This document shows positions 13,161 to 51,120 of a DNA stretch of 51,120 nt, in pieces. Made by a program: the position numbers and the translations under genes. Numbering within the stretch: position 1 is the stretch's first letter; each line of letters begins with the position of its first letter. The stretch is from a virus: the IMG/VR virus record IMGVR_UViG_3300002835_000280, positions 1-51,120 of that record, one strand, 5' to 3'. The notes under the pieces are model-generated. The model was not told the DNA's origin, searched no databases, and saw only the letters and a list, made by a program, of their open reading frames with translations.

Positions 13161-13163
13161 CAG

Positions 13164-13655
13164 ATGGCAACAGTTCTAACAACACAAACATTAGTTGATT
13201 CTAATAGACATTCGGTTATTAAGGTAGTTGGTGTTGGTGGTACCGATGCTAACGTATCACTTATTAGAGCAGCAAATCTAGCTTATGCTATCAATGCTAC
13301 TGGTGTTGTTAGCACAACAAATCCAAAGCGCCTTAATAGAGTTGCCATCAGACGCATTTGGGGTCAAGGACAGATTGCAACAGCAGGAGCAGGTGTAACA
13401 CTAAAATGGGGCGGCAATGCCAATAGCGCCATTGTTACATTTGGTAACGGTCTTTTTGATTACGGCTTTGACTCTGGCTGCACCGCTGGTACAATTGAAA
13501 TTCCTGATCAAGCAAACTGCACAGGCGATATTGTATTCTCCAGCACAGCAGGTGCTACAGATACCTGGACACTATTCATCGATCTAAAGAAAGACGGCCG
13601 TGACTACGATCAAGGTCAGGCTCGTGATCCTCTAGCATTTAACAACGGACTCTAA
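13164..13655 (+). CDS. small putative virion (head decoration-type) protein
   Basis: 163 residues, no named family recognised with confidence. The composition (Ala, Gly, Thr, Asn, beta-prone) and segments such as KVVGVGGTDANVSLIRAANL and LKWGGNANSAIVTFGNGLFD suggest a beta-sandwich structural protein. The C-terminus reads DLKKDGRDYDQGQARDPLAF. It sits inside the head assembly cluster, three bases after the previous stop and one base before the next start, so it is co-expressed with core proteins. A capsid decoration role is inference. Confidence 0.55.
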   Translation: MATVLTTQTLVDSNRHSVIKVVGVGGTDANVSLIRAANLAYAINATGVVSTTNPKRLNRVAIRRIWGQGQIATAGAGVTLKWGGNANSAIVTFGNGLFDYGFDSGCTAGTIEIPDQANCTGDIVFSSTAGATDTWTLFIDLKKDGRDYDQGQARDPLAFNNGL

Positions 13656-37813: not shown

Positions 37814-38109
37814 TGAGTATGATTGGACATAACCAGCAGCAGCGTTCGGTTCAGGGTCTTACCGAAGAAGATCGCAAGACACTACGAAAGGCAGTTATGG
37901 AGATGAATGACTCCATGACCCGTGTTGGTGCCGAGCGTGAACTACAGAAAGAAACTACCAATGAGGTATGCGACAAGCTAGGCATCGATAAGAAGCTATT
38001 CCGTCGCATGTCTCGTGCCTACTTTAAGGCTAACTTCAAGGACGAGGTTCAGGAGAACACCGACTTTGAGGAGTTCTATTCAACCGTAATGGAAAAGACC
38101 GCTCTATGA
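37813..38109 (+). CDS. small helical protein, DsbA-like (dsDNA-binding) candidate
   Basis: 98 residues. Helical: LTEEDRKTLRKAVMEMNDSM, then NEVCDKLGIDKKLFRRMSRA and YFKANFKDEVQENTDFEEFY. The pattern 'xLGIxKKxFxxMxxAYxxxNFxEE' is what I recall for DsbA-type double-stranded DNA-binding proteins of T4-like phages, which modulate late promoters. The match is from memory and not strong. Coupled to the upstream gene by TAATG and to the next by ATGA. Confidence 0.5.
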   Translation: MSMIGHNQQQRSVQGLTEEDRKTLRKAVMEMNDSMTRVGAERELQKETTNEVCDKLGIDKKLFRRMSRAYFKANFKDEVQENTDFEEFYSTVMEKTAL

Positions 38110-38222
38110 GTGATTTAGGTGATATGATCGCCTATGAAATTGGTAGACGTATTATAGCGGCGATTGTTATTGGCGCTATAGTTTTTGGTGGAATAGGATT
38201 CGTGATAGGGAAGTTTTTATGA
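38106..38222 (+). CDS. 38-residue glycine-rich membrane peptide
   Basis: ATG overlaps the upstream stop and TGA overlaps the gp44 ATG. Residues about 15-35 (RIIAAIVIGAIVFGGIGFVI) form a single membrane helix rich in small residues, with a short acidic N-terminus. Third tiny membrane gene in this window wedged between larger genes by four-base overlaps. Confidence 0.6.
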   Translation: MSDLGDMIAYEIGRRIIAAIVIGAIVFGGIGFVIGKFL

Positions 38223-39154
38223 GTGAATTTTTATATGTTGAGAAATACCGTCCTCACAAGATTGAGGACTGTATTTTGCCTGATCGACTCAAGAAAGTCT
38301 TTCAGGAGTATGTGACAGAGGGTAATATCCCTAATCTAATGTTGACTGGTACGGCAGGCTGTGGTAAAACCACAGTCGCCAAAGCCATGTGTGAGGAGAT
38401 TGGTTGTAACTTTCTATTCATCAATAGTTCTGATGAAAGAGGTATCGATGTCCTTCGCACAAAGATCAAAGGCTATGCTTCTACAGTTTCATTGACTGGT
38501 GGTCGTAAGGTTATCATCCTTGATGAGGCTGACTATCTTACACCAGAAGCACAGGCGGGGTTGCGTGGTGCAATCGAGGAGTTTTCTGAAAACTGTTCTT
38601 TCATTTTCACCTGCAACTTTAAGGCTCGTCTGATTGACGCCCTTCACTCTCGCTGTTCCGTTGTTGACTTCGCACTAAAAGGTGATGAGAAGGCCAAGAT
38701 GGCAGCGCAGATGTTTAAACGCCTGTCAAACATTTTAACAGAAGAAGGCATTACATATGACAAAGATGTATTGGGTAAGATCGTTCAACGCTATTTCCCA
38801 GACTATCGTAGGACTCTTAACGAGTTACAAAGGTATTCTACTTCTGGAAACATTGATGCTGGTGTTCTTAGTCAAGTTGAATCAGTAAGAAAACTTGATG
38901 ATCTAATCAAGGCTCTTAAAGATAAAGACTTTTCAACCATGCGTAAGTGGGTTGTTAATAACTCTGACATTGACCAGAGCCGTATCTTTAGATCAATCTA
39001 TGATAACCTTTGTAACTATCTAAAGCCCGAGAGTGTGCCAATGGCTGTGGTTACTCTTGCTAAGTATCAGTATCAGTCCGCTTTCGTCGCTGATCAAGAG
39101 TTGAACTTGGTCGCATGTCTAACTGAATTGATGGTAGAATGTGAGGTGAAGTAA
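38219..39154 (+). CDS. gp44: gp44 clamp loader ATPase subunit
   Basis: 311 residues (T4 gp44: 319). Loads gp45 on DNA with gp62. Walker A GTAGCGKT at 44-51, Walker B KVIILDEADYL near 99, sensor FIFTCNFKARLIDALHSRC near 130-148 with the SRC Arg-finger motif, and the N-terminal VEKYRPHKIEDCILPD typical of loaders. The stop overlaps the gp62 ATG (TAATG), keeping the pair coupled as in T4. Confidence 0.95.
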   Translation: MSEFLYVEKYRPHKIEDCILPDRLKKVFQEYVTEGNIPNLMLTGTAGCGKTTVAKAMCEEIGCNFLFINSSDERGIDVLRTKIKGYASTVSLTGGRKVIILDEADYLTPEAQAGLRGAIEEFSENCSFIFTCNFKARLIDALHSRCSVVDFALKGDEKAKMAAQMFKRLSNILTEEGITYDKDVLGKIVQRYFPDYRRTLNELQRYSTSGNIDAGVLSQVESVRKLDDLIKALKDKDFSTMRKWVVNNSDIDQSRIFRSIYDNLCNYLKPESVPMAVVTLAKYQYQSAFVADQELNLVACLTELMVECEVK

Positions 39155-39558
39155 TGGATGTGTTTCGTGATTTGATTCCATCCATTCTTCAAACAAAGAA
39201 GAACGTCCTTGAAAACGACAAGGACTATCCAGCTTTCGTAGTGAACCGGGCTCTCTCGTTTCACTACGATTGCGTTCTTCAAGCAAATGAAATGAACCAG
39301 AATCCTGGTTTACCTGCATCCATGCAATACCAGTATTTGCTAAATACAGTGAGAGGCTATAAAAGGCCTTTTCGCAAGTGGGAGAAGCGTGAGACCATTG
39401 ATGACTTAGAAGCCGTCAAAGAATACTATAACTATTCTAACGAAAAGGCCCGAGAAGCATTGGTTCTACTGGACGCTAACCAACTCGAAACAATAAGAAA
39501 AGCAATCGACAAAGGTGGCACAAATGACAGTAAACCTAGACGAGTTCGTGGAAGTTAA
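39154..39558 (+). CDS. gp62: gp62 clamp loader small subunit
   Basis: 134 residues, shorter than T4 gp62 (187). Recognisable by position and by the opening MDVFRDLIPSILQTKKNVLE and the later FVVNRALSFHYDCVLQANEM then NTVRGYKRPFRKWEKRE. It has no ATPase motif, as expected. The short length matches small gp62 proteins of exo-T4 phages. It overlaps regA by 35 bases. Confidence 0.87.
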   Translation: MDVFRDLIPSILQTKKNVLENDKDYPAFVVNRALSFHYDCVLQANEMNQNPGLPASMQYQYLLNTVRGYKRPFRKWEKRETIDDLEAVKEYYNYSNEKAREALVLLDANQLETIRKAIDKGGTNDSKPRRVRGS

Positions 39559-39937
39559 ACTTCCGGACCCTCAGGCCTTCCTTAAGGTGAAAGAGACGTT
39601 AACCCGTATTGGTGTAGCGTCTAAGAAAGATAAGACACTCTATCAGTCATGTCATATTCTACATAAGCAAGGCCACTACTATCTCGTTCATTTCAAGGAG
39701 ATGTTTATGTTGGATGGAAAACCAACAGACTTCTCAGAAGAAGATCGTGGTAGAAGAAACACTATCGCTAATCTATTGGCAGAATGGGGACTAGTAACTC
39801 TAGTCACACCAAGCAAATCACAAGAACCATTAACACCTCTTAACCGTATCAAGATCATATCTTATGGTGAGAAGGGTGAATGGAATCTAGTTGCTAAGTA
39901 TTCATTGGGAAAGAAACGTTTTTCAGATACAGAATAA
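39524..39937 (+). CDS. regA: RegA translational repressor
   Basis: 137 residues (T4 RegA: 122). RNA-binding repressor that blocks ribosome sites of early phage messages, including clamp-loader genes. The central block FLKVKETLTRIGVASKKDKT, LYQSCHILHKQGHYYLVHFK is almost the same as in T4. Start at ATG 39524, with AAAGGTGG just upstream; GTG 39515 is inside that site. The extra N-terminal residues MTVNLDEFVEVKLPDPQA are mild. Confidence 0.95.
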   Translation: MTVNLDEFVEVKLPDPQAFLKVKETLTRIGVASKKDKTLYQSCHILHKQGHYYLVHFKEMFMLDGKPTDFSEEDRGRRNTIANLLAEWGLVTLVTPSKSQEPLTPLNRIKIISYGEKGEWNLVAKYSLGKKRFSDTE

Positions 39938-39952
39938 GAAAGTGAGTTCGTT

Positions 39953-40561
39953 ATGACAACATTGAGAATATGGAAAACAAATCCTGCCGTCCAGCTTCCT
40001 AAACACCAGACGGCACAATCAGCCTGTTTTGACCTAGCCTTTCAGACCGCAGGAAAGAATAGCTATAAGGGTTATTCTCATATGAATAAGCCTTTCTCCA
40101 GAGAGATGAAGGATCGTCTTACCATCGCTCCAGGTGAGCGGGCGCTCATTCCAACGGGGTGTATCATGGATATACCAGAAGGCTTCTCCGTGCGTCTCCA
40201 CGCTCGTTCCGGAACGTCTCTAAAGCAGGGTCTAGTCCTTGCTAATGCCGAAGGTGTGATTGATTCCGATTACGTTGAGGAAGTGTTTATCATACTTCAC
40301 AATATCTCTGGTAATGCCGTTACCATTGAGAACGGTGACCGTATCGCCCAGGCGGAACTTGTTAAGAATGTGGAATACACCGTCGAAGAAACACCAGCAC
40401 GACCACTACCAAAGACCAGCCGAGCAGGTGGATTTGGTTCTACAGGTATCACAAACCAACACAATATGGTCGTCATAAATATTCCAGAAACTAAAGAGGT
40501 CAAGGTTGAAGAACCTGCGCCTGTTAAACGTGGTAGAGGTAGACCAAGAAAGAATGCCTAA
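39953..40561 (+). CDS. dut: dUTPase with C-terminal AT-hook
   Basis: 202 residues. Trimeric dUTPase motifs: I in SACFDLAFQ, II in LHARSGTSLKQG, III in LANAEGVIDSDY, IV in NGDRIAQAELV, V in RAGGFGSTG. Converts dUTP to dUMP, protecting phage DNA from uracil. Insertion of about 20 residues after motif I. After motif V there is an unusual 40-residue tail ending in KRGRGRPRKN, a textbook AT-hook for minor-groove binding. The stop overlaps the next ATG. Confidence 0.94.
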   Translation: MTTLRIWKTNPAVQLPKHQTAQSACFDLAFQTAGKNSYKGYSHMNKPFSREMKDRLTIAPGERALIPTGCIMDIPEGFSVRLHARSGTSLKQGLVLANAEGVIDSDYVEEVFIILHNISGNAVTIENGDRIAQAELVKNVEYTVEETPARPLPKTSRAGGFGSTGITNQHNMVVINIPETKEVKVEEPAPVKRGRGRPRKNA

Positions 40562-41099
40562 AGCCCATAGAGTTGGTGATCAAAGAATGTGTGGTGCCGT
40601 TACGACAAGTGCTGGCATCAACACAAACGTTTTTGTTAACGGTCAACTGGCATCCGTTGTTGGTGACCTTGACAGTCACAATAACCTTGGTGCTTTGATA
40701 TCACAATCACCTGGCACTATTTTGATTAACGGCATTCCTATGATCGCTGCTATCATGGATCAAGGTTCGCCAGATCAAGAAGGTATTGTTACACACGTTA
40801 CAGGACTACCAACTCCAGGCACAGGATCGCCTAACGTCAATATGTATGGTGGTCAAGGCACATTCGGCGGTGGATTAGGAAACTTTGGTCTATCTGGTGT
40901 TCCCGGTATCGGTGAGGTCATGCAAATCGGTTCTCAGATTGTAGGACAAGTATATCGCACCGCAGTTCAAAGTGGTAGTTCGGGAATGATGGCTCTTAAC
41001 AATATGAATCCTGCCGTAACTCCACCGACGGTCAATACAACCATTACAAGTGCTAATACAGGAAAGACATTTACGTTTACCTCGTATTATACCTCTTGA
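40554..41099 (+). CDS. PAAR-domain spike-tip protein
   Basis: 181 residues from ATG 40554. PAAR pattern: AHRVGDQRMCGAVTTSAGIN, TNVFVNGQLASVVGDLDSH and GTILINGIPMIAAIMDQGS, the repeated 'NGxPxaxxgD' strands that fold to a sharp cone on VgrG or gp5 spikes (T4 gp5.4). C-terminal 90 residues are Gly/Asn/Thr-rich, of unknown role. It is odd to find this tail gene among replication genes, overlapping dut by eight bases and next to an early promoter. Confidence 0.8.
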   Translation: MPKAHRVGDQRMCGAVTTSAGINTNVFVNGQLASVVGDLDSHNNLGALISQSPGTILINGIPMIAAIMDQGSPDQEGIVTHVTGLPTPGTGSPNVNMYGGQGTFGGGLGNFGLSGVPGIGEVMQIGSQIVGQVYRTAVQSGSSGMMALNNMNPAVTPPTVNTTITSANTGKTFTFTSYYTS

Positions 41100-41125
41100 C
41101 AAGTTTGTGACAATTACTATATAAT
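41096..41125 (+). promoter_or_regulatory. sigma70-type promoter for hsp20
   Basis: TTGACA at 41096-41101, 18-base spacer, TATAAT at 41120-41125. The -35 box overlaps the stop codon of the PAAR gene. Predicted start of the RNA is about 41132, the first base of a hairpin. Confidence 0.82.
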
Positions 41126-41130
41126 GTTAT

Positions 41131-41176
41131 GACGATAGCCGAAAGGTATCGTCCTTATACTCTCGCTGAAAAGGAG
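41131..41176 (+). promoter_or_regulatory. hsp20 leader hairpins, RNA-thermometer candidate
   Basis: GACGATA (41131-41137) pairs with TATCGTC (41147-41153) at the very 5' end of the predicted RNA. TCCTT (41152-41156) can pair with AAGGA (41171-41175), the ribosome site of hsp20. The second stem is short (5 bp) and would melt easily; it shares two bases with the first. Heat-controlled leaders before hsp20 genes (ROSE type) are known in rhizobia; this one is not a clear ROSE by sequence. Confidence 0.45.
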
Positions 41177-41183
41177 AACTAAT

Positions 41184-41708
41184 ATGACAAACGACTATTT
41201 CGGAATCCCAACCGGCCTTGCCCGCCAGTTTATCGGCTTTGAACAAATGCTAGATAAGATTAGAGAGGCAAGCGAAACCCTTCCTAAGATTCCATCTTAC
41301 CCTCCATACAATATCAAGAAGATTGACGATGAACATTTCGTGATTGAAATGGCTGTCGCTGGCTTCGGTAAGACCGACCTTGATATTGAATTGAAAGATG
41401 GTACGCTAACCGTATCTGGTAGTCATGATGCAGATGACAAGGATTATATCTACCAAGGTATTGCTAATCGTGCCTTTACTCGCAAGTTTACTCTTGCTGA
41501 CACTGTTGTTGTAAAAAATGCGGAGTTAGTCAATGGTCTACTTAAAATTGCTCTCGAACGTTTTGTACCGGAAGAAAAGAAGGCGAAGAAAATCGACATC
41601 ATGGATCCGTTCGGTGTCCAGGAAGTGACAAAGCAATTTCTGACCGAAGGTACTAAGACCTGGGTCGATCTAGCACAAAAGACCATGGATGCCGTGACAC
41701 CTAAGTAA
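41184..41708 (+). CDS. hsp20: Hsp20 / alpha-crystallin small heat-shock protein
   Basis: 174 residues. Alpha-crystallin domain: YPPYNIKKIDDEHFVIEMAV, AGFGKTDLDIELKDGTLTVS, YIYQGIANRAFTRKFTLADT and NGLLKIALERFVPEEKK, ending in the C-terminal anchor-like KKIDI. Close to bacterial IbpA-type proteins. A similar Hsp20 is common in T4-like cyanophages. It would hold unfolded virion or host proteins during infection. Single-gene unit with own promoter and terminator. Confidence 0.95.
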   Translation: MTNDYFGIPTGLARQFIGFEQMLDKIREASETLPKIPSYPPYNIKKIDDEHFVIEMAVAGFGKTDLDIELKDGTLTVSGSHDADDKDYIYQGIANRAFTRKFTLADTVVVKNAELVNGLLKIALERFVPEEKKAKKIDIMDPFGVQEVTKQFLTEGTKTWVDLAQKTMDAVTPK

Positions 41709-41718
41709 GAATAACAAG

Positions 41719-41765
41719 ACCCCTCCACGCCTCTCGTAGAAGCGCACCCGGAGGGGTTACTTTTA
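41719..41765 (+). terminator. intrinsic terminator after hsp20
   Basis: ACCCCTCC (41719-41726) pairs perfectly with GGAGGGGT (41750-41757). An inner stem of three bp plus three bp fits inside the 23-base loop. TACTTTTAT follows. It separates hsp20 from the glycan cluster. Confidence 0.7.
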
Positions 41766-41778
41766 TAATGAGGTTACT

Positions 41779-42531
41779 ATGAAACTTGTGATTGAAGAAT
41801 CCCCAAAGACTGTAACAGTTATTACTCCTACAATTGGTTCTCCTAAACTTTGGGATGCTGTTGAGTCCGTCAAAGCACAAACTTATCCTTGTAAGCATCT
41901 AATCGTCCTTGATGGTCCGGATGTTAAAGCAGACCGCTTGCCATGGCCGCATGATGGTTATGATAGCATTATTGTAAAGACACCAGAGAACACAGGTAAG
42001 ACTGGTGGCAACTTTTATGGTCATCGCATCTATGCGGCTTATCCACATCTACTCAATTCAGATTACATTCTATTCCTCGATGAAGATAACTGGTATGAAC
42101 CTAATCATGTTGAAACACTGGTCAAGACTATTGAAGCAAAGAACCTAGACTTTGCCTATTCTCTCCGTCAGATTTATGATAATGGTAGGCATTTCCGTTG
42201 CAATGACAATTGTGAAAGCCTTGGTAAGTGGCCAATCTTTATGTCCCGTAGTTCTCGTCATGGTGAACAGTTCCTAATCGACACATCATCGTTCTGTTTC
42301 ACAAGAGAGTTTATCCAAAAGACATGCCATCTATGGCATTCTGGTTGGGGTGGTGACCGTCGTTATTTCTATGCTGTTAAAGATCAAGCTAAGTTTGACA
42401 CAAACGGCAAACATACACTATGCTATCGTTTAGATGGCAATCCTAATTCAGTAACAGAACAATTCTTTGTTGAAGGTAACAAGACACAAGAAGCATATTA
42501 TGAAGGGAAGTTTCCATGGCTAAGGACCTGA
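41779..42531 (+). CDS. family 2-type glycosyltransferase
   Basis: 250 residues. GT2-like GT-A fold: TVTVITPTIGSPKLWDAVES near residue 12, KHLIVLDGPDV near 36, and the metal-binding DxD motif YILFLDEDNWYEPNHV near 95-110, with DTSSFCFTREFI later. First gene of a run of at least eleven glycan-related genes joined by short overlaps; no clear promoter is seen other than possible read-through. Donor and acceptor unknown. Confidence 0.87.
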   Translation: MKLVIEESPKTVTVITPTIGSPKLWDAVESVKAQTYPCKHLIVLDGPDVKADRLPWPHDGYDSIIVKTPENTGKTGGNFYGHRIYAAYPHLLNSDYILFLDEDNWYEPNHVETLVKTIEAKNLDFAYSLRQIYDNGRHFRCNDNCESLGKWPIFMSRSSRHGEQFLIDTSSFCFTREFIQKTCHLWHSGWGGDRRYFYAVKDQAKFDTNGKHTLCYRLDGNPNSVTEQFFVEGNKTQEAYYEGKFPWLRT

Positions 42532-43409
42532 TAATTGGTGGGGCGAGCGGCTACAATTGGGATCAGTTGAAATACTGGGTCAATTCTATTAAGAAAACTG
42601 GTTTCAAGGGTGATGTTGTTATCGTTGCCACTAACATGCCAGGTGATACAGTTAAGAAGCTGGTAGAGAATGATGTTAAAGTCTATGCCTATGGTCAGAG
42701 AACGGAAGATGGTGGTATCGGTAAAACCGAGAATAACATTCCTCCACACGTTGAACGTTTTCTATTCATTTGGGATTACCTGCGCCGGAACAAGGACACT
42801 TATCGTTATGTTACCGTTACTGATACACGTGACGTTATCTTTCAGAAGGATCCAACCGAGTATCTTAGTTCTAATCTATTTGCACAGTCCATTGTGTGTG
42901 CCTCCGAAGGATTGTCATACAAAGACGAACCATGGGGAAACAAGAACCTTCTTGACACCTTCGGTCCTTTAGTGTATGATGAACTTAAAGATGGGTTGAT
43001 CTACAATGTAGGAACGATTGCCGGCTTCTATGAGGAAGTTCGTGATCTACTATTACAGATTTTCTTTCAATCTGTCAATCGTCCGATTCCAATTGTGGAT
43101 CAGGCAGTGTTTAACTTTCTGATTAACCAGCATCCTCTACGTGGTGAAACTCTATTCACTAACAATGTAAGTGGTTGGGCTGTCCAGTTAGGTACAACTA
43201 AGGCAGCCGTCGCTGCTGGTGCTGGTGATATCGGTTTGGCAGTTAAGCAAGATCCGTCCAAGATGGATGAATATATAAAAGTATATCAAGATGAACAGCC
43301 TGTAGTAAACGGCGACATGGTATATAATGATCATGTGGCTTTCACCATCGTCCACCAGTGGGACCGTGTTCCTGCTATCAAAGAATTGGTTATGAAGAAA
43401 TATGGATAA
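42516..43409 (+). CDS. putative glycosyltransferase (GT-A-like, DxD)
   Basis: 297 residues. Opens KDLIIGGASGYNWDQLKYW with a Rossmann-like VVIVATNMPGD strand; the segment YVTVTDTRDVIFQKDPTEY holds a DxRD motif in the place of the GT-A metal site, and LIYNVGTIAGFYEE plus IPIVDQAVFNFLI follow. This resembles eukaryote- and phage-like uncharacterised transferases, not a named CAZy family I can pick. Overlaps both neighbours by a few bases. Confidence 0.7.
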   Translation: MAKDLIIGGASGYNWDQLKYWVNSIKKTGFKGDVVIVATNMPGDTVKKLVENDVKVYAYGQRTEDGGIGKTENNIPPHVERFLFIWDYLRRNKDTYRYVTVTDTRDVIFQKDPTEYLSSNLFAQSIVCASEGLSYKDEPWGNKNLLDTFGPLVYDELKDGLIYNVGTIAGFYEEVRDLLLQIFFQSVNRPIPIVDQAVFNFLINQHPLRGETLFTNNVSGWAVQLGTTKAAVAAGAGDIGLAVKQDPSKMDEYIKVYQDEQPVVNGDMVYNDHVAFTIVHQWDRVPAIKELVMKKYG

Positions 43410-44259
43410 GTTAAGACTAGGCTTTGCGGATACCTTTGATGGGGCCAAAGAGTATTTCACCACTATTCTTTCCATGAGATATGAAGTAGTCCGGGACGAT
43501 CAGCGCCCGGATTATCTTATCTTTGGTGATCGTAACTTTGGTGAGACAAACGTTAGATATGAGAATTGCGTTCGTATCTTCTACACTGGTGAGAACCAGC
43601 GTCCATCAGATTATCGTCATGACTTTGCTATCACGTTTGATCATCCACAAGATCAAGCAAAGATGTATCGTTTACCTCTATATGTAATCTATGAGTTTGA
43701 CCATCTAATTCATCAGAATAGAGAGCAACGACATGTGGATGATTTTGATAATAAGAAGTTTTGTTCTTTCGTTGTAAAGAATCCTGGATGCCAGTATCGC
43801 AATTCTTGGTTTCATGCATTGAGTCAGTTTCAACAGGTAGACTCAGCAGGCCCTTTATTCAATAACATGTATAATGGTTGGCGCCCAGAAACGGTTGTTG
43901 ATAAAGTAAAGTTTATGAGTGACTACAAGTTCAATCTGTGTTTTGAGAATAGTTCATATCCTGGCTACTGCACCGAGAAACTATTTGAGGCTCTTTGTGC
44001 TAAGACTATTCCAATCTATTGGGGTTCGTCTACTGCTGCACTCGACTTCAATCCTAAAGCGTTTCTCAATCGTCATGACTTTGCTAATGATCAGACTTTC
44101 TTTGACAAGATCGTTTCTCTTTCTAGAAATAAAGAACTATACAATGAAATGTATATGCAGCCTATGTTCCGTGAGGACGAGTTTAATAGAAACTTTAACA
44201 TACATCGTTTTTTGAATTGGTTTGAATCTAATGTTTATCAAGGTGTGATCAATGAATAA
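43402..44259 (+). CDS. GT10-type fucosyltransferase-like protein
   Basis: 285 residues. The C-terminal half holds the alpha-1,3-fucosyltransferase block YKFNLCFENSSYPGYCTEKL, FEALCAKTIPIYWGSSTA, which binds GDP-fucose in GT10 enzymes. The N-terminal half is the variable acceptor domain (DYLIFGDRNFGETNVRYENC). Sugar could be fucose or a similar deoxysugar. No GDP-fucose synthesis genes (gmd, fcl) are seen in the window, so donor would come from host or from outside the window. Confidence 0.88.
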   Translation: MDKLRLGFADTFDGAKEYFTTILSMRYEVVRDDQRPDYLIFGDRNFGETNVRYENCVRIFYTGENQRPSDYRHDFAITFDHPQDQAKMYRLPLYVIYEFDHLIHQNREQRHVDDFDNKKFCSFVVKNPGCQYRNSWFHALSQFQQVDSAGPLFNNMYNGWRPETVVDKVKFMSDYKFNLCFENSSYPGYCTEKLFEALCAKTIPIYWGSSTAALDFNPKAFLNRHDFANDQTFFDKIVSLSRNKELYNEMYMQPMFREDEFNRNFNIHRFLNWFESNVYQGVINE

Positions 44260-44980
44260 AGCCCTAATCATTACTCCCACAGGTCGTCCGATCTATCATC
44301 ATGAAGATTATGACAAAGACAATCACTGGCGCTTTACAAAGCCCGAGCGCACATATGAGACTTGTGTGGTTGTCTATAATGACTTTCAGCCAGAGCCAGG
44401 AACTTATGACTATATCATTCGTCGCAAGGGTCTAAAATGGAATCTTGCACCAGAGGTTTCTAAGATCATCAACTGGCAGGACTATGATTACATCGGAGTG
44501 TGGGACGATGACTATGCTACCGATATTAAGTCTGTCAATCTTGCTTTGTCATATGCTCGGCGCTATGATTTTAGATTGTTTCAACAGGCCACTACATCAT
44601 TCCAGACATACGATTGCCTCAAGCATAATCCAGAGTTTGCTTTTACCGAGACAAACTTTATTGAGTTAGGTGTTCCATTCTTCCGTAATGATATCTATCG
44701 CAAGGTTCTTCGTTTCTTGGATGCCTATAAGTATGAAGCATCCGATTGGGGCATTGATAAGGTTCTTTGTTTTTATCTACAGGCGTCGGCTCATGTGGTT
44801 CATGATTGCACAGTTAGACACATGCTACCAGATGAAAGCACCTATAATAAAGAAGATGGCTTTAGAGAAATGGAATATTTAATGCGTGACTTCTTTCCAA
44901 AGTATATGAAAGAGAACTTTGGTTTAGACTATCAGTATTCGGATGTCCAGAAAACAATAAGGGCTTATAAGCATGGATAA
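44252..44980 (+). CDS. DUF707-like / putative glycosyltransferase
   Basis: 242 residues. NKALIITPTGRPIYHHED at the start, YDYIGVWDDDYATDIKSVNL near residue 74 (acidic triad in the place of a DxD), then RLFQQATTSFQTYDCLKHN and YEASDWGIDKVLCFYLQ. The pattern fits DUF707-like proteins, thought to be glycosyltransferases. ATGA-type overlap with neighbours on both sides. Confidence 0.65.
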   Translation: MNKALIITPTGRPIYHHEDYDKDNHWRFTKPERTYETCVVVYNDFQPEPGTYDYIIRRKGLKWNLAPEVSKIINWQDYDYIGVWDDDYATDIKSVNLALSYARRYDFRLFQQATTSFQTYDCLKHNPEFAFTETNFIELGVPFFRNDIYRKVLRFLDAYKYEASDWGIDKVLCFYLQASAHVVHDCTVRHMLPDESTYNKEDGFREMEYLMRDFFPKYMKENFGLDYQYSDVQKTIRAYKHG

Positions 44981-45764
44981 ATTGACAAGATACATTAACT
45001 GGATTGACGTTAAGCGACAGTATCAAAACTCCCTTCCTTTCAATCATGTTATTATCGACGACTTCTTCCTACCACATGTAGCTGAACAACTCGCCACAGA
45101 GTTTCCATCATATAACAATCCTGGCCTCGGCTTCTATAACAATGCTATTGAGAACAAGAAAGTTCTTAACAAGTGGGACAAGTTTCCAAAGCTAACATAT
45201 CAGGTCTTTACATACCTGGCTCGTAGTGAGTTTCTTTCTAACATGAGAGAACTTATTGATGAACCAAATCTAAACATGGATATTGGTTTGAATGGAGGCG
45301 GCTGGCATATGCATGGTCGTTCTGGAAAGAACAATGTCCATCTTGATTACAACATTCATCCAAAGCTAGGCGAACAGCGCAAACTAAACATCATCATCTA
45401 TATGACACCAAACTGGAAGAAAGAATGGGAAGGTGGACTTGAAATCTGGTCGCATGATCCTGTGAACTTTGCTCCTAAGGATCTTGTCAAGACTGTGGAG
45501 AATAAGTTCAATCGTGCAGTCATCTTTGATACTACACAGAACTCATGGCACGGTCTACCTAATGAACTAAAATGTCCAGAAGGAACTGTTAGACAGTCTC
45601 TTGCGGCATACTATGTTCGTCCTGCTCCTGCTGGTGCTGATCCTCGTGGTAAGGCTCTATTCGCTCCTACTGCCGAACAAAAAGGTAACCCAGAGATTGA
45701 ACAGCTAATCCGTGAACGATCAAGCGTAGCAACGGCAGATAAGTTCCACGCAGGAGACAAGTAA
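44973..45764 (+). CDS. 2-oxoglutarate/Fe(II)-dependent oxygenase (prolyl-hydroxylase-like fold)
   Basis: 263 residues. VHLDYNIHPKLGEQRKLNII, IYMTPNWKKEWEGGLEIWSH and NRAVIFDTTQNSWHGLPNEL give the His-x-Asp and distal His iron ligands of the 2OG-Fe(II) family, and VRQSLAAYYVRP the 2-oxoglutarate Arg. Better conserved than the other oxygenase at 28456. Within a sugar cluster it may oxidise a sugar or a lipid/protein carrier, but such proteins also occur alone near glycosyltransferases. TAATG overlap with the next gene. Confidence 0.82.
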   Translation: MDKLTRYINWIDVKRQYQNSLPFNHVIIDDFFLPHVAEQLATEFPSYNNPGLGFYNNAIENKKVLNKWDKFPKLTYQVFTYLARSEFLSNMRELIDEPNLNMDIGLNGGGWHMHGRSGKNNVHLDYNIHPKLGEQRKLNIIIYMTPNWKKEWEGGLEIWSHDPVNFAPKDLVKTVENKFNRAVIFDTTQNSWHGLPNELKCPEGTVRQSLAAYYVRPAPAGADPRGKALFAPTAEQKGNPEIEQLIRERSSVATADKFHAGDK

Positions 45765-46474
45765 TGGAAGAGACCGACGTTGTATTCTTTATCAATAGCG
45801 CCATGAATGTCACTGGTCGTTCCCTCTACTCTAATGATGTTAGATGGGAACAGACACAGGAAACGATTTTATCTATTGACAAACAGGTACCAAATAATAT
45901 AAAATACATTATTGACGGATCGTATCTACCAATTGAGGAATACAAACTCAAATGGTTGAATGATCATGGTGTTAGGATCATTCTAACAGGCCATGTTCCT
46001 GGCGTGAAAGAAATATCTCAACACATTGCCAGTTATGGTATTGGTAACAGTATCGCAGAAACACAGTCTATGGTTCATTTCGTCAGATGGTTCAAAGCTA
46101 ATCTACAAGAAAAAACCAAGGCAAAGCGTATCTGTAAGTTATCTGGTAGATATAAGATTAACGAGAACTTCAAGTGGGATGATCCTGCTTATGAAGGTAA
46201 GTATGTCTTTGTAAAGCACCATCAGTCAAACAGTCCTCGCAAAGCCGAATTAGACCTGAAAGGATTGTTTGTTGTTCGTTGCTGGCACATGGATTATGCT
46301 CTACTAGATAACTATGAAAGAGTTATCACAAACATCGCTAACGATTGCGCCGGTCTCGGTATCGATGCGGAAAACTCTTACTACAAAAACATTCCTAAAG
46401 ATTTACTTTATGAAGTGGAAAAGATTGGCGTAGAAGGTTATGTCTCACCCGTGGGAGTCTATGAAAATGAGTAA
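45764..46474 (+). CDS. uncharacterised, probable glycan-related transferase
   Basis: 236 residues. N-terminus DVVFFINSAMNVTGRSLYSN, then KYIIDGSYLPIEEYKLKWLN; middle AKRICKLSGRYKINENFKWD, a 'KLSGRY' motif I have seen in LPS-related GT-A proteins. No certain DxD. Assignment to glycan synthesis rests on that motif and the neighbours. It overlaps the dehydratase gene. Confidence 0.45.
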   Translation: MEETDVVFFINSAMNVTGRSLYSNDVRWEQTQETILSIDKQVPNNIKYIIDGSYLPIEEYKLKWLNDHGVRIILTGHVPGVKEISQHIASYGIGNSIAETQSMVHFVRWFKANLQEKTKAKRICKLSGRYKINENFKWDDPAYEGKYVFVKHHQSNSPRKAELDLKGLFVVRCWHMDYALLDNYERVITNIANDCAGLGIDAENSYYKNIPKDLLYEVEKIGVEGYVSPVGVYENE

Positions 46475-47513
46475 AACACTATTGATTACAGGTGGTGCCG
46501 GGTTTATCGGTCACCACGTTATTGACCTGTTCTTACAGAAAACTGATTGGAACATTGTGTCACTTGATCGCCTTGACTATTCAGGCAATCTAAATCGCCT
46601 TGATGACGTTGTTCGCCGCTATCCTGCTGAAACTCGTAAGAGAGTTAAGGTTGTGTATGGTGATCTTCGTGCAGAGGTTACATCGCTACAGGGAAACTTT
46701 ATTGGTGATGTTGATTACATCCTTCACATGGCAGCATCGTCACACGTTGACCGCTCTATTGAAGATCCAATGTCATTCGTTATGGATAACGTTGTCGGTA
46801 CAGTAAACATTCTAAACTTTGCCCGCAAGTGTAAGAACCTCAAGCGGTTCATCTATTTCTCCACTGACGAAGTTTTCGGTCCTGCTCCAGGTACCATTAC
46901 ATATGGTGAGCGTGATCGTTACAACTCAACAAATCCATACTCAGCATCTAAGGCTGCTGGTGAAGAAATGTGCGTTTCGTTCGAGAACACATACAAGCTA
47001 CCAATCTTCATTACTCACACAATGAACGTCTTTGGTCAGCGTCAGCACCCAGAGAAGTTTCTACCAATGTGTATTCGTAAGGTTCGCAATGAAGAAACTG
47101 TAACCATTCACTCTGATCCATCTAAGACAGTTCCTGGTTCACGTTTCTATATTCATGCTGCCGATGTTGCTGATGCAATGTATTTCCTACTACATCTAAC
47201 ACCAGAGCAGGAAGCAAAGGTTCATGAGCCTGATTATGGTGGAGCCAAGTGTCCAAAGTTCAACGTTGTTGGTAAAGAAGAAATCAACAATCTTGAATTG
47301 GCTAAGTATGTTGCAGGTGCAGAAGGCAAAGAACTCAATTATGAGATGGTAGACTTCCATTCATCTCGTCCAGGCCATGATCTTCGTTATGGTCTATCTG
47401 GCGAATATATGAAGTCACTTGGTTGGGAGCCTCGCTTTACTCTCCGTGAACGTATCAAGGAAGTGGTCGATTGGTCACTTGCTAACCCAGAATGGATTGA
47501 GGTGACAGAATGA
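46467..47513 (+). CDS. dTDP-glucose 4,6-dehydratase-like enzyme (RmlB family)
   Basis: 348 residues from ATG 46467, nine bases after GGGAG (ATG 46461 has only three). Extended short-chain dehydrogenase: NAD motif GGAGFIG at 9-15, YGDLRAE near 64, STDEVFG at 132-138 (Asp-Glu of the dehydratase) and the catalytic Tyr/Lys in YSASK at 158-162. It makes NDP-4-keto-6-deoxyglucose from NDP-glucose. The product is the usual precursor for rhamnose and branched or amino deoxysugars. ATGA overlap with the next gene. Confidence 0.88.
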   Translation: MSKTLLITGGAGFIGHHVIDLFLQKTDWNIVSLDRLDYSGNLNRLDDVVRRYPAETRKRVKVVYGDLRAEVTSLQGNFIGDVDYILHMAASSHVDRSIEDPMSFVMDNVVGTVNILNFARKCKNLKRFIYFSTDEVFGPAPGTITYGERDRYNSTNPYSASKAAGEEMCVSFENTYKLPIFITHTMNVFGQRQHPEKFLPMCIRKVRNEETVTIHSDPSKTVPGSRFYIHAADVADAMYFLLHLTPEQEAKVHEPDYGGAKCPKFNVVGKEEINNLELAKYVAGAEGKELNYEMVDFHSSRPGHDLRYGLSGEYMKSLGWEPRFTLRERIKEVVDWSLANPEWIEVTE

Positions 47514-48076
47514 GCGTAACATATACTATTATCGATCCTATGCCAGACCCACAGTGGGTATCTGGCAAGGATATTCTACCACTACTAAAAGACTTTAAGA
47601 ATCCTGTTGGTATCGAGATTGGTGTTGATGAAGCACCAACAAGCTGGTTCTTTCTAAAGAATAGACCTGATCTAAAGCTATATGGAGTTGATCCATATCA
47701 GGCTTATCAGGACTGGTATCCAGAAGGCTTTATTAGCCAGCGTCAACAGGATGAAAAGTATGATAACATGCGCCGCCGTACCGAGGAGTTTGGTGATCGT
47801 TGGAAGCATTATCGTCTAACGTCAGATGATGCCGTTCGTCTATTTGATGATAACGCATTTGATTTTATCTTTATCGATGGTCTACATGAGTATGAGCAGG
47901 TTCTAAAGGACTGCCGTAACTATTGGCCAAAGATTAAGAAGGGTGGTGTATTCGCCGGTCATGACTACCGTGTTATTGCTGGTGTTGGTAAGGCGGTAGA
48001 TGAGTTTGCTGCCGAGGTTGGTGCTACACCAATTCATCTACCAGAACAAGACGCATGGTACTGGATTAAGGAGTAA
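47510..48076 (+). CDS. class I methyltransferase (Methyltransf_24 / macrocin-type)
   Basis: 188 residues. SAM motif I NPVGIEIGVDEAPTSWFFLK near residue 32, LYGVDPYQAYQDWYPEG acidic loop near 57 and FDFIFIDGLHEYEQVLKDCR near 117, KKGGVFAGHDY near 146. That metal-dependent pattern is typical of small O-methyltransferases acting on sugars. It follows RmlB by a four-base overlap and so may O-methylate the deoxysugar or glycan (inference). Confidence 0.82.
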   Translation: MSVTYTIIDPMPDPQWVSGKDILPLLKDFKNPVGIEIGVDEAPTSWFFLKNRPDLKLYGVDPYQAYQDWYPEGFISQRQQDEKYDNMRRRTEEFGDRWKHYRLTSDDAVRLFDDNAFDFIFIDGLHEYEQVLKDCRNYWPKIKKGGVFAGHDYRVIAGVGKAVDEFAAEVGATPIHLPEQDAWYWIKE

Positions 48077-48079
48077 ACT

Positions 48080-49300
48080 ATGGATTGGGAATGTCGTCCG
48101 ATTACGGAATGTATTGCATGTGGTTCAAGCGATTTGGTTCCTGTATTGGATCTCAATTCCCAACCATTAGCTAACTCATATAAAAATAACCAGAACGATC
48201 CAGAGGCGGAATATCCTCTGGCTATCAATCGCTGTAAGCATTGCTATCATGTCCAGTTGACACATCAGGTGAATCCAGAACTTATGTTCAAGGATTATGC
48301 CTATGTGTCAGGCACATCAAAAACGATGTTGGAGTTCTTTGATTGGTTGGTTGATTTTACCACCAAGAAATATGGTTCAACTCCAAAATCAGTGTTAGAT
48401 ATCGGATGCAATGACGGTAGTTTCCTCAACGCATGGGGTGGCACGGGAGCCTCCAGGTTCGGTGTTGATCCTGCCGAAAACTTGTATCCGATATCTTCTA
48501 AAAATCATTCTATTCATTGTGGCTTCTTTACTGGTAAGGAGTTTGGTGATAGAAAGTTTGATGTTATCACCTGTCTAAATGCCTTTGCTCATAATGCAGA
48601 CCAGCTAACATTGCTGAAAAACATTCGTAAGCGTATGCATGATGACAGTCTACTATTCTGCTCCACTTCGCAAGCCAATATGATCTTGAATGGTGAGTTT
48701 GATACGATCTACCACGAGCATCTATCATTCTATAATATCAAGTCAGCCCGAGCATTGTGTGAACGTGCAGGACTAAACTTGATCGATGTGTATAAGCATC
48801 CTATCCATGGCACAAGCTATATCTTTGTTATCTCCCGTGACAAGGAAGCCAAACTCAATATCGAAAGAAAGATTGTTGAGGAAGAGAATATGGGTCTATA
48901 TGATCCAGAAACTTATGATCATTATGCTGAACGGTGTTACTTTGTGGCCGATAAGTTTGCAACAACCATTCGTGAGTTAAGAGGTCTAGGTATCACAGTA
49001 GTTGGCTATGGAGCTCCTGCAAAAGGCAATACACTAATGAACTTTGCCAATGAGGGTCCAGATTTTATCATTGATGATAATCCTCTAAAGCAAATGAAGT
49101 TTACTCCTGGCATGTCTGTTCCTATTCAACCAGCGGGTTACATGACACTAAACTATTTTGAGAAAGAGAAACTAGCTTTTGTTCCTCTTGCATGGAACTT
49201 CTATGATGAAATCAAGACCAACATCTATACACTAAGACCAAAGCATCTATTCAAGGATATCTTTGTTCGTTATTTCCCAGAGTTCAAAATTGATGAATAA
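48080..49300 (+). CDS. NDP-sugar C-methyltransferase-like protein (NovU/TylC3 type)
   Basis: 406 residues. Three-domain plan: zinc-binding N-terminus with CIACGSSDLVPVLDL and RCKHCYHVQL (four Cys), a SAM domain with VLDIGCNDGSFLNAWG near residue 106 and FDVITCLNAFAHNADQL, and a C-terminal Rossmann-like domain with VVGYGAPAKGNTLMNF near 303 and FIIDDNPLKQ. This is the plan of sugar 3-C- or 5-C-methyltransferases such as NovU and TylC3, which use NDP-4-keto-6-deoxysugars. The neighbouring RmlB would make that type of substrate. Confidence 0.88.
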   Translation: MDWECRPITECIACGSSDLVPVLDLNSQPLANSYKNNQNDPEAEYPLAINRCKHCYHVQLTHQVNPELMFKDYAYVSGTSKTMLEFFDWLVDFTTKKYGSTPKSVLDIGCNDGSFLNAWGGTGASRFGVDPAENLYPISSKNHSIHCGFFTGKEFGDRKFDVITCLNAFAHNADQLTLLKNIRKRMHDDSLLFCSTSQANMILNGEFDTIYHEHLSFYNIKSARALCERAGLNLIDVYKHPIHGTSYIFVISRDKEAKLNIERKIVEEENMGLYDPETYDHYAERCYFVADKFATTIRELRGLGITVVGYGAPAKGNTLMNFANEGPDFIIDDNPLKQMKFTPGMSVPIQPAGYMTLNYFEKEKLAFVPLAWNFYDEIKTNIYTLRPKHLFKDIFVRYFPEFKIDE

Positions 49301-50081
49301 CATCGTAGCATACTATCATATACATTTGACGGACGATCCACTAATCTGGTCGTCCATCTTCCTTGAACAAATGAAGGTGATAGAGGATTCAGGTCTTAGC
49401 CAGCATCTTACCAAAATGAGGATTACCTGTATCGGTCAGGATGATGATCGAATCCAAATGTTTGTTAGACTATGTGAGTCCTATAACATTCCTATGGAAT
49501 TAACTGCTGTTAAGAATCCATTTGCCAACGACCGTGATATGCTCTATAATCGTAATAGTGATAAGTCATGCACGGAAGATATCACACTAAAGCGGATCTA
49601 TGAGGATTGTAAGAATGAGGACATGAAGGTTCTATACTTTCATTCCAAAGGTTCAACCTCATATTCCACAAACGTCAATGTCAATAACATTGTCAAGCAT
49701 AAAGAATACTTTTACTGGCGTTCTTTCATGAACTGGGCAGCATTAGATCAATGGGCTTGGTGTGAGAATGCCTTAGGACAATATGACATTGCTGGTGGTG
49801 ACTATCATGAAGAACCGTCGCCACACTATTGCGGTAACTTCTGGTGGGCAACATCTAATCACATTAGACAGCTACCAGATCCGTTAGATAAGAAGTGGTG
49901 GTATGACTTACAACAAAGAACAACTGATCCTTGGATTAAGCAAGCACCAGTTAGAATGTATGATGAAATGTGGATCGGTGCCAGAGAAGGCATCAAAGCA
50001 TACAATCATGTTGACCTAAAAGGCAGAAGTCCTGTCAAAGATTGTATTACAGTATTAGATTGCGAAAGGTTGTTACAATGA
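49293..50081 (+). CDS. uncharacterised glycosyltransferase-like protein
   Basis: 262 residues from ATG 49293 (overlaps the previous stop). Features: MNNIVAYYHIHLTDDPLIW, YFHSKGSTSYSTN near residue 119, YFYWRSFMNWAALDQWAWCE near 140, HYCGNFWWATSNHIRQLPDP near 180 and RMYDEMWIGAREG near 223. The 'HxKG ... GNFWWA ... E.WIG' combination recurs in an unnamed family found in phages and giant viruses beside glycosyltransferases. Role inferred from that and context only. Confidence 0.55.
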   Translation: MNNIVAYYHIHLTDDPLIWSSIFLEQMKVIEDSGLSQHLTKMRITCIGQDDDRIQMFVRLCESYNIPMELTAVKNPFANDRDMLYNRNSDKSCTEDITLKRIYEDCKNEDMKVLYFHSKGSTSYSTNVNVNNIVKHKEYFYWRSFMNWAALDQWAWCENALGQYDIAGGDYHEEPSPHYCGNFWWATSNHIRQLPDPLDKKWWYDLQQRTTDPWIKQAPVRMYDEMWIGAREGIKAYNHVDLKGRSPVKDCITVLDCERLLQ

Positions 50082-51120
50082 AGGTAGCAGTAATTGGTGC
50101 AGGTGGTCATGTTGGCTTTCCATTCTCATGTGTGATTGCCAATGCTGGACACACTGTCTATGGTATCGATGTTAATCAGAATGCCGTAGATATGCTAAAC
50201 AAAGGCTTCGTGCCTTATGTTGAGGAAGGCGCCGTTGAAATACTACAGGAGAATCTCCGCTCGGAGCGTTTGCTATTCTCCACCGACTTTGATTTTATCA
50301 AGGACGTTGATGTTGTTGCCATTATGATTGGCACACCAGTAGATGGAGAAGGTAATGCAAGGCTGGATGATCTTTTTAATTTTGTTGACGATACTCTTAT
50401 TCCTCGTATGAGTAAACATCAACTAATCGTCCTTCGTTCAACAGTGTCACCAGGAACCACCGAGGTTCTTCGTAAGCATATTGAGAAGAAGCATGGTTGG
50501 AGAGAAGGTTTAGATTACTTTCTTGTGTTTTGCCCAGAGCGTGTTGTGCAGGGCAAGTCTATCATTGAAACAACCAAGCTACCACAGATTGTTGGTGCGT
50601 TCAATGATTTTTCGTATAAGGCCGCTAAGGACTTCTTTAGCACATTTATTACTAATCAAATCTTCCAACTGACTCCCAAAGAGGCAGAACTTGGCAAGTT
50701 GATGACCAATATGTATCGTTATGTTACTTTTGCGTTTGCCAATGAAATGTGGATGATTGGTGAAAAGCATGGAGTGAACATTGACAAAGTTATTGACGCA
50801 TGTAACTATGATTACCCGAGAATGGACGTACCTCATCCTGGACCTAATGTCGGTGGTCCGTGCCTATTCAAAGATGGTCGTTTTCTTCTTTCTGATATTC
50901 CTTTCGGCGACCTTATTCAAACTAGCTTCCTTATCAATGAAGGCATGCCAGAGTATGTCTTTAACCGTATCAAAGAAATGAATCCTGATATTGAGAAGGT
51001 ACTTATCCTTGGTGCTACCTTCAAGAAGGGTTGTGATGATACTCGTAACAGTCTATCATTCAAGATGCGTAAGGTATGTAAGAAGCATGGTGTAGAAGCA
51101 TATATGGTTGATCCGTTGAC
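50078..51120 (+). CDS. UDP-sugar 6-dehydrogenase (Ugd/WecC family), 3'-truncated
   Basis: The first 347 residues; the frame stays open to the window end. Rossmann motif GAGGHVG at 7-13, middle RSTVSPGTTEVLRKHIEKK, FCPERVVQGKSI, and the catalytic Cys at about 262 in VGGPCLFKDGRFLL; C-terminal domain starts with VLILGATFKKGCDDTRNS. Family enzymes oxidise C6 of UDP-glucose, UDP-GlcNAc- or ManNAc-type sugars to uronic acids; the GGPCLxKD form leans toward N-acetylaminosugar dehydrogenases (inference). ATGA overlap with the upstream gene. Confidence 0.9.
   Translation, partial: MKVAVIGAGGHVGFPFSCVIANAGHTVYGIDVNQNAVDMLNKGFVPYVEEGAVEILQENLRSERLLFSTDFDFIKDVDVVAIMIGTPVDGEGNARLDDLFNFVDDTLIPRMSKHQLIVLRSTVSPGTTEVLRKHIEKKHGWREGLDYFLVFCPERVVQGKSIIETTKLPQIVGAFNDFSYKAAKDFFSTFITNQIFQLTPKEAELGKLMTNMYRYVTFAFANEMWMIGEKHGVNIDKVIDACNYDYPRMDVPHPGPNVGGPCLFKDGRFLLSDIPFGDLIQTSFLINEGMPEYVFNRIKEMNPDIEKVLILGATFKKGCDDTRNSLSFKMRKVCKKHGVEAYMVDPL

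Follow-up and report, generated by a model that had tools for sequence, protein, structure and literature searches.

The last 9.3 kb of IMG/VR record IMGVR_UViG_3300002835_000280 carry an operon in which an RmlB-like sugar-nucleotide dehydratase and a TylC3-type C-methyltransferase (CMT) would together make a C-methyl-branched sugar. The record is a 51,120-base linear fragment of an uncultured T4-like water phage and was analyzed whole (the window). We read the operon as phage-encoded glycan remodeling that decorates an acceptor already present, most likely a host surface glycan, and give this reading an even chance. Eleven plus-strand open reading frames (ORFs) follow hsp20 between 41779 and 51120, the eleventh still open at 51118. 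With ATG starts placed at 49293 (gene 10) and 50078 (gene 11), adjacent genes overlap by 1 to 35 bases; only genes 8 and 9 stand apart, by 3 bases.

41779..42531, plus strand: gene 1, GT2-family glycosyltransferase (PF00535, 4.6e-11)
42516..43409, plus strand: gene 2, GT-A-fold glycosyltransferase-like by prediction (AlphaFold2 pLDDT 93.8; Foldseek best E 7.3e-9; phrog_1579 glycosyltransferase, 3.6e-4)
43402..44259, plus strand: gene 3, GT10 of the alpha-1,3-fucosyltransferase type (PF18025, 9.7e-23; PF00852, 8.8e-19)
44252..44980, plus strand: gene 4, orphan with a DDD motif, kept in phage clusters (no family match)
44973..45764, plus strand: gene 5, 2-oxoglutarate (2OG)-Fe(II) oxygenase, prolyl-4-hydroxylase-like (PF13640, 1.8e-13; HxD at 123-125)
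45764..46474, plus strand: gene 6, orphan, kept in phage clusters (no family match)
46440..47513, plus strand: gene 7, RmlB-like NDP-glucose 4,6-dehydratase (TIGR01181, 2.3e-70; PF16363, 3.9e-51; phrog_540, 1.1e-99)
47510..48076, plus strand: gene 8, Methyltransf_24 methyltransferase (PF13578, 5e-17)
48080..49300, plus strand: gene 9, TylC3/TcaB9-like sugar CMT (PF08421, PF13489, PF08484)
49293..50081, plus strand: gene 10, GT-A-fold glycosyltransferase-like by prediction (AlphaFold2 pLDDT 83.3; VIA-align Z 11.5)
50078..51120, plus strand: gene 11, UDP-sugar dehydrogenase, truncated at the record end (99% identical to a complete ORF in the related locus L002)

An earlier note, made from the letters of this DNA, had described an eleven-gene sugar cluster with short overlaps; the ORFs and families bear this out, and the gene order recurs in related contigs. 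The enzymes it named (GT2, GT10, RmlB-like, a small O-methyltransferase, CMT, and UDP-sugar dehydrogenase) all have Pfam or TIGR matches. Its statement that every gene concerns sugars went too far: gene 5, which had gone unnamed and also matches PF13661, is an oxygenase, genes 4 and 6 fit none of the families tried, and for genes 2 and 10 the likeness to glycosyltransferases comes from the predicted fold, with a weak PHROG match added for gene 2. Tail sheath, scaffold, major head protein, clamp loader, and helicase families among the window proteins place the phage with the T4-like group. Its capsid and portal are closest to those of Pelagibacter phage Mosig (66% and 58%) and its helicase to that of Methylophilales phage Melnitz (47.5%); a megablast search of 38000-51120 against phage records gave no match.

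The branching pair and the proposed route

The case for a branched sugar is built on genes 7 and 9. The best Protein Data Bank (PDB) sequences for gene 7 are dTDP-glucose 4,6-dehydratases, and the residues of its T-D-E and YxxxK motifs (T142, D143, E144, Y167, and K171) align with 8du1 and 2hun and are invariant in 11 phage sequences. Gene 9 encodes a single chain of three domains, PF08421 (zinc; residues 11-70), PF13489 (S-adenosylmethionine; 99-236), and PF08484 (C-terminal; 241-381), which are the Methyltransf_13, _23, and _14 domains in the layout of sugar C-methyltransferases. Its best PDB match is 4rv9, the D-mycarose 3-C-methyltransferase TylC3 (2.1e-56), followed by TcaB9, both of them sugar 3-C-methyltransferases. 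The segment FDTIYHEHLS aligns identically to 4rv9, and Y211, H212, E213, and H214, together with the Cys residues of the zinc domain, are invariant in 12 phage CMT sequences; we take the catalytic roles of the His, Glu, and Tyr residues of this segment to be those described for TylC3. The branched, methylated 6-deoxysugar of the earlier note thereby gains, at sequence level, an RmlB-like enzyme next to a TylC3-type CMT with key residues kept, whereas O-methylation of the sugar is a role that we infer for gene 8.

Gene 11 is cut by the record end, and its continuation was followed in IMGVR_UViG_3300020558_000136 (L002, L085), in which the operon is repeated with proteins 99-100% identical and the sequence extends further. 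The complete dehydrogenase of L002 has all three UDPG_MGDP_dh domains (PF03721, 3.8e-36). The nearest PDB sequences to gene 11 are Cap5O (8.5e-54) and a hypothetical UDP-ManNAc-uronate dehydrogenase, both UDP-ManNAc-type enzymes, so a uronic acid branch, as proposed earlier, is plausible or even likely, although its substrate is not fixed. Beyond gene 11, L002 encodes a short-chain dehydrogenase/reductase (SDR), a GalE-like protein (TIGR01179, 273.8 bits, above the cut-off of 262.3), an ORF of 75 residues, and a second 2OG oxygenase; an epimerase sought past position 51120 is therefore present in this relative. The dehydrogenase and SDR recur together in records G001, G002, G003, G005, and G007, four of which also have GalE. 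Aminotransferases, another suggestion for this region, were found as a family in two of 11 records of relatives. The best NCBIfam row for the SDR is a UDP-xylose synthase model at 88 bits, below its cut-off and tied with GDP-fucose synthase and GalE, and its best PDB sequence is a UDP-glucose 4-epimerase; a UDP-xylose or UDP-arabinose branch through the dehydrogenase and this SDR is a candidate that we leave open. An acyl-CoA dehydrogenase, odd cargo for a phage, lies directly past the glycan operon in a relative (L003:15305-16960).

The transferases are assigned with differing firmness. Gene 3 passes its cut-offs clearly (FucT_N, 80.9 versus 27.2 bits; Glyco_transf_10, 68.3 versus 23.9 bits), and domain family scans assigned no GDP-fucose enzyme among the 11 cluster genes. 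The gene 2 model matches mostly GT6/GT8/UGGT/LARGE1-type transferases in Foldseek, with TM scores to the query of 0.40-0.50. For gene 10, Foldseek alone was weak (best 4.7e-4), and the Z score of 11.5 was obtained against mannosylglycerate synthase over 172 residues at 3.2 A. Both are modeled as GT-A-fold proteins, and a shared fold alone does not show function. Sequence-profile searches of the PDB with genes 2, 4, and 10 produced nothing usable. Gene 4, which is 93% identical in L003 and L004, may by extension be a glycosyltransferase.

As a route, gene 7 would convert dTDP-glucose of the host to dTDP-4-keto-6-deoxyglucose, as its family and residues suggest, and gene 9 would methylate C-3 of this dTDP-4-keto sugar to give dTDP-4-keto-6-deoxy-3-C-methylhexose, as proposed for virenose. 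Reduction at C-4 by a ketoreductase, perhaps the SDR beyond the record end or a host enzyme, would be a speculative next step. In parallel, the UDP-sugar dehydrogenase, downstream SDR, and GalE could yield a uronic acid or one of its derivatives. GT2, GT10, the two predicted GT-A-fold proteins, and perhaps genes 4 and 6 would then add sugars to a pre-existing acceptor, and the methyltransferase and 2OG oxygenase may trim the product.

We assign dTDP-glucose to the host because neither of two methods detected an RmlA-like protein in G001 or G002, the near-complete kin, a negative that holds for near kin only. A PF00483 profile search was negative in all 10 records, yet hmmscan finds an NTP_transferase domain in L044 (in G005), and a local RmlA-like profile built from three sequences matches L044, L054, L056, L035, L040, L041, L042, and L047. 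Two glycan clusters encode a fusion of a HAD hydrolase with a nucleotidyltransferase (L044:14870-16249 and L054:13750-15162; the HAD part is shown for L044, the nucleotidyltransferase part for both). With RmlC (PF00908), like PF00483, at zero of 10 records, the Rml pathway to L-rhamnose appears incomplete by these profile searches.

Conservation, spread, and kin in SAR11

The gene order recurs in L002, L003, L004, and L087 (to its end) at 66-100% protein identity. Ratios of nonsynonymous to synonymous substitution (dN/dS) against L087, L003, and L004 are 0.008-0.201 in 28 of 29 cluster-gene comparisons, the 29th having a saturated dS; the operon is under purifying selection. These values, the intact catalytic residues, and the pairing described below argue against the genes being functionless cargo, filler that headful packaging retains, a possibility raised for cyanophage lipopolysaccharide (LPS) clusters in the available text of PMC3037559. 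We regard filler as already largely refuted and give it very little credence.

A phage-encoded C-methyl-branched sugar had been expected to be unusual. The IMG/VR viral scan instead returned 511 stretches encoding CMT relatives, making the module common in uncultured phages; the best 80 were kept as loci, many of them near copies of each other. Where at least 3 kb of upstream sequence is available, RmlB (at least 50% identity) lies one to three ORFs upstream of the CMT in 60 of 61 loci, at a spacing of one ORF in 40, two in 11, and three in 9. Among the remaining 19 loci, with less than 3 kb upstream, RmlB is visible in 11 and not in 8. Over 41 loci, after identical CMTs were dropped, RmlB and CMT distances correlate at r 0.77, compared with 0.58 for RmlB and gene 2 and 0.70 for CMT and gene 2; all three beat 2000 permutations, which points to linkage more than to any special tie between RmlB and CMT. 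In another phage group, a DegT-family PLP enzyme (6.2e-73) and an SDR come after the CMT (L060:11172-12449 and 12440-13258), a cluster that hints at a branched sugar of another kind, perhaps an amino or dideoxy one.

Named phages are a different matter. Across 50,697 GenBank phage records, tblastn found CMT relatives in 8, all distant (20-30% identity); gene 2 had one distant match, GT10 had 13, all below 60% identity, and RmlB had 285, of which 51 reach 60-80%. A search of the open-licence literature found no paper on the rfbB route or on an enzyme for C-methyl sugars in phages.

Cellular relatives were sought by scanning genome contigs with the CMT alignment, which gave at least 587 stretches and at least 535 relatives, the best 80 being kept. 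Five of these 80, among them the top four, come from Pelagibacteraceae (single-cell or metagenome genomes), and only in those five does RmlB of at least 60% identity stand beside the CMT. Judged by sequence, the closest cellular RmlB-CMT pair among the best 80 is that of SAR11 genomes. Family models applied to the flanks in L112, L113, and L120 show the pair in an island bordered by lepA and, at the other end, gyrB. As in the phage operon, RmlB (60-62%) is followed by an overlapping CMT (41-45%), GT2 is also present, and in L113 a Methyltransf_24 gene precedes; unlike the operon, the island is chromosomal and small, and the G+C content is 26-28%, versus 41.5% in the window. A TylC3-like match at 1e-20 occurs in 222 of 397 genomes from the order of L112's genome; among the matches listed, six reach 44-47%, and all six adjoin an RmlB of 60-61%.

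In a CMT tree with 60 members, all but one of the 30 phage sequences group together (83/85), the SAR11 set is supported at 100/100, the two join at 83/99, and phage L071 stands beside SAR11 (90/65). The supports 83/85, 83/99, and 90/65 all lie below the 95/80 mark, and the SAR11 rows are compositionally unusual, so any exchange between phages and SAR11 may have run either way. A bolder reading, which we consider unlikely, is that the RmlB-CMT module is old, was diversified by phages, yields a virenose-like 3-C-methyl-6-deoxyhexose in many uncultured T4-like phages, and has been exchanged with SAR11. Phages would then place this branched sugar on the cells they infect, and some SAR11 strains on their own surface, as a shared mark excluding rival phages.

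Other host indicators are mixed. Both near-complete kin carry a permuted alpha-type tmRNA above the Rfam gathering score (L100:5925-6251 in G001; L104:17146-17895 in G002). According to the available text of PMC9004378, Melnitz has a SAR11-related permuted tmRNA that is absent from its own non-alphaproteobacterial host; since phage and host differ in this way, tmRNA type does not fix the host, and the G+C content too departs from that of SAR11. The G002 tmRNA spans about 750 bases, far beyond the model length, as though it contained an insert. The photosynthetic host marker psbA was found in none of 10 records.

Acceptor and timing of expression

Families for an initiating transferase (PF02397) and a Wzx-type flippase (PF01943), the latter among the genes that the earlier note had suggested looking for, were absent from all 11 records of relatives searched, including L002, with the window itself outside this search. 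By this measure the operon is not a complete O-antigen or capsule locus, and for the same reason its transferases most likely use an existing acceptor. A host surface glycan would be the likeliest acceptor, and its alteration could close the infected cell to further phages. We rank the host envelope first and the virion second. Envelope remodeling is also how the glycan genes of pelagimyophages have been read in print: the available text of PMC7029224 assigns their UDP-glucose dehydrogenase and glycosyltransferases to a change of the O-chain against coinfection.

Glycosylation of virion proteins (capsid or fibers) in the cytoplasm, as a shield or adhesin, is a possible but doubtful alternative. 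It would explain why no flippase, ligase-type, or initiating enzyme is seen, since cytoplasmic protein glycosylation needs none; G001 and G005 also encode collagen-like proteins, and gene 5 is prolyl-hydroxylase-like. No acceptor protein was identified, however, and although G001 has both gene 5 and a collagen-like protein, G003 (94 kb, incomplete) has gene 5 only, G005 has collagen-like runs without gene 5, and G002 and G007 have neither. The collagen-like Gly-X-Y proteins are L101 (G001) and L225 (G005), in ORF frames of 398 and 900 codons. Hydroxylation or glycosylation of collagen fibers by gene 5 was rejected, as gene 5 and collagen-like runs are not paired across the five records.

T4-like phages are known for DNA glucosylation, and the many transferases and the 2OG oxygenase of the operon could be taken to mean that its sugars are attached to phage DNA bases, a target that the earlier note had also listed. 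The thymidylate-synthase/dCMP-hydroxymethylase family (PF00303) was, however, found in none of 10 records, which may be fragments, and in 9 of 14 control genomes, making T4-style base glycosylation unlikely. Gene 5 matches PF13640 and PF13661, with no TET/JBP model listed, and a set of distinct transferases is more in keeping with an oligosaccharide than with one modification of a base. We hold modification of DNA bases to be highly improbable.

Timing bears on the choice between envelope and virion, and three features lie upstream of the operon:

41096..41125, plus strand: sigma-70-type promoter-like site TTGACA-18-TATAAT before hsp20 (12/12; consensus match only)
41184..41708, plus strand: Hsp20 small heat-shock protein, a fixed operon neighbor in near kin (PF00011, 7.6e-19; phrog_432, 2.6e-36)
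41718..41758, plus strand: terminator-like hairpin between hsp20 and gene 1 (fold of 41709-41778, -22.2 kcal/mol)

No strong promoter-like site upstream of the operon lies closer to it than the one at 41096..41125; the window has three further 12/12 sites of this type. Among 24 loci of relatives with sequence upstream of hsp20, several of them the same contig, a 12/12 site is present in 19, a 10/12 site in three, and none in one; in L087, the site is visible in the sequence and fell outside the automated count owing to an early ORF start. The site suggests early expression of hsp20 and is compatible with early expression of the operon. TAAATA, a late-promoter-like motif, occurs at 14 plus-strand places in the window; eight of them fall no more than 60 bases ahead of a listed start, and none lies past 40476. 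This absence speaks against a virion role, weakly, as the motifs are not enriched in the window (TATAAATA, 1 found versus 2.95 expected; CTAAATA, 9 versus 9.13).

The hairpin fold has a z of -2.8, with one of 200 shuffles equally stable, and a GC-rich hairpin can be seen by eye in relatives; the terminator scan did not list 41718..41758 as a plus-strand terminator. An abiF RNA at 41721-41756 is not claimed: it scores 35 bits against an Rfam gathering score of 37 and has no match in L003, L004, or L006. A second hairpin, with a GAAA loop, occupies the hsp20 leader (41130-41153); by eye, relatives show matching changes on both arms, and it could be a leader stabilizer or a thermometer.

Several observations count against envelope remodeling with a C-methyl-branched sugar. 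Gene 7 scores 237.2 bits against TIGR01181, under the equivalog cut-off of 365.1, yet this is its best family, and it probably works like RmlB though outside the equivalog. The exception among the 61 loci, L044, belongs to a record (G005) in whose 169 kb a CMT is present but RmlB is not, and the two genes can therefore occur apart. None of the genes was assigned as a 4-ketoreductase. Because of the hairpin that stands between hsp20 and gene 1, transcription from the promoter-like site may not reach the operon; late-promoter-like motifs at chance frequency make timing a weak argument, and in the L008 group TATAAATA stands directly after hsp20. The sequence does not tell a host glycan from a virion glycan, and the reading as a whole draws on sequence and predicted fold.

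Comparison with known systems

TylC3 and TcaB9 of antibiotic producers share with gene 9 the three-domain architecture and the catalytic segment and are its best PDB sequences; both act on 2,6-dideoxy substrates. The virenose route (dTDP branch) proposed for the LPS of an animal pathogen combines, in the available text of PMC3539893, a 4,6-dehydratase with TylC3-type C-3 methylation of a 4-keto-6-deoxy sugar and, as here, has its ketoreductase unassigned. It is an in silico proposal for a cellular genome, likened to the phage operon by description. Synechococcus phage DSL-LC02 (L215, metagenome-assembled, T4-like) lines up genes for a dehydratase, a CMT, an SDR, and glycosyltransferases, but its dehydratase is a GDP-mannose dehydratase (GMD), its CMT is distant, and a GDP-fucose synthase is present, a parallel C-methyl layout on a GDP sugar. 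The available text of the DSL-LC02 paper discusses the GMD and fucose genes, and the CMT is not among the genes discussed there (PMC10611076).

The closest setting is that of the LPS clusters of T4-like cyanophages (P-SSM2, S-SM2, and S-SSM7) and of pelagimyophages, which likewise join sugar-nucleotide enzymes and transferases in operons; the window operon combines sugar-nucleotide enzymes and several transferases in a T4-like genome in the same way. Pelagimyophages encode a UDP-glucose 6-dehydrogenase with transferases (available text of PMC7029224). S-SM2 has, in its LPS region, a gene 67% identical to gene 7 that is annotated as a nucleotide-sugar epimerase, T4-GC 265, one of seven LPS genes common to three phages in the available text of PMC3037559. 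Other genes surround RmlB in S-SM2 and S-SCSM1, and, unlike the window, the cyanophage and pelagimyophage clusters have no CMT relative (tblastn of the phage collection, in which 8 records matched).

Descriptions of phage sugar clusters have mostly stopped at generic LPS genes. In the present operon, a conserved gene pair seen in hundreds of uncultured-phage stretches, with its closest cellular kin in a very abundant bacterial group, may be tied to a defined step, the C-methyl branching of a 6-deoxysugar; if this is true, the purpose of phage glycan genes becomes directly testable. Phage LPS clusters are known, having been described since at least 2010 (available text of PMC3037559); what appears, from sequence comparison, to be new is a C-methyl-branching variant of such clusters.

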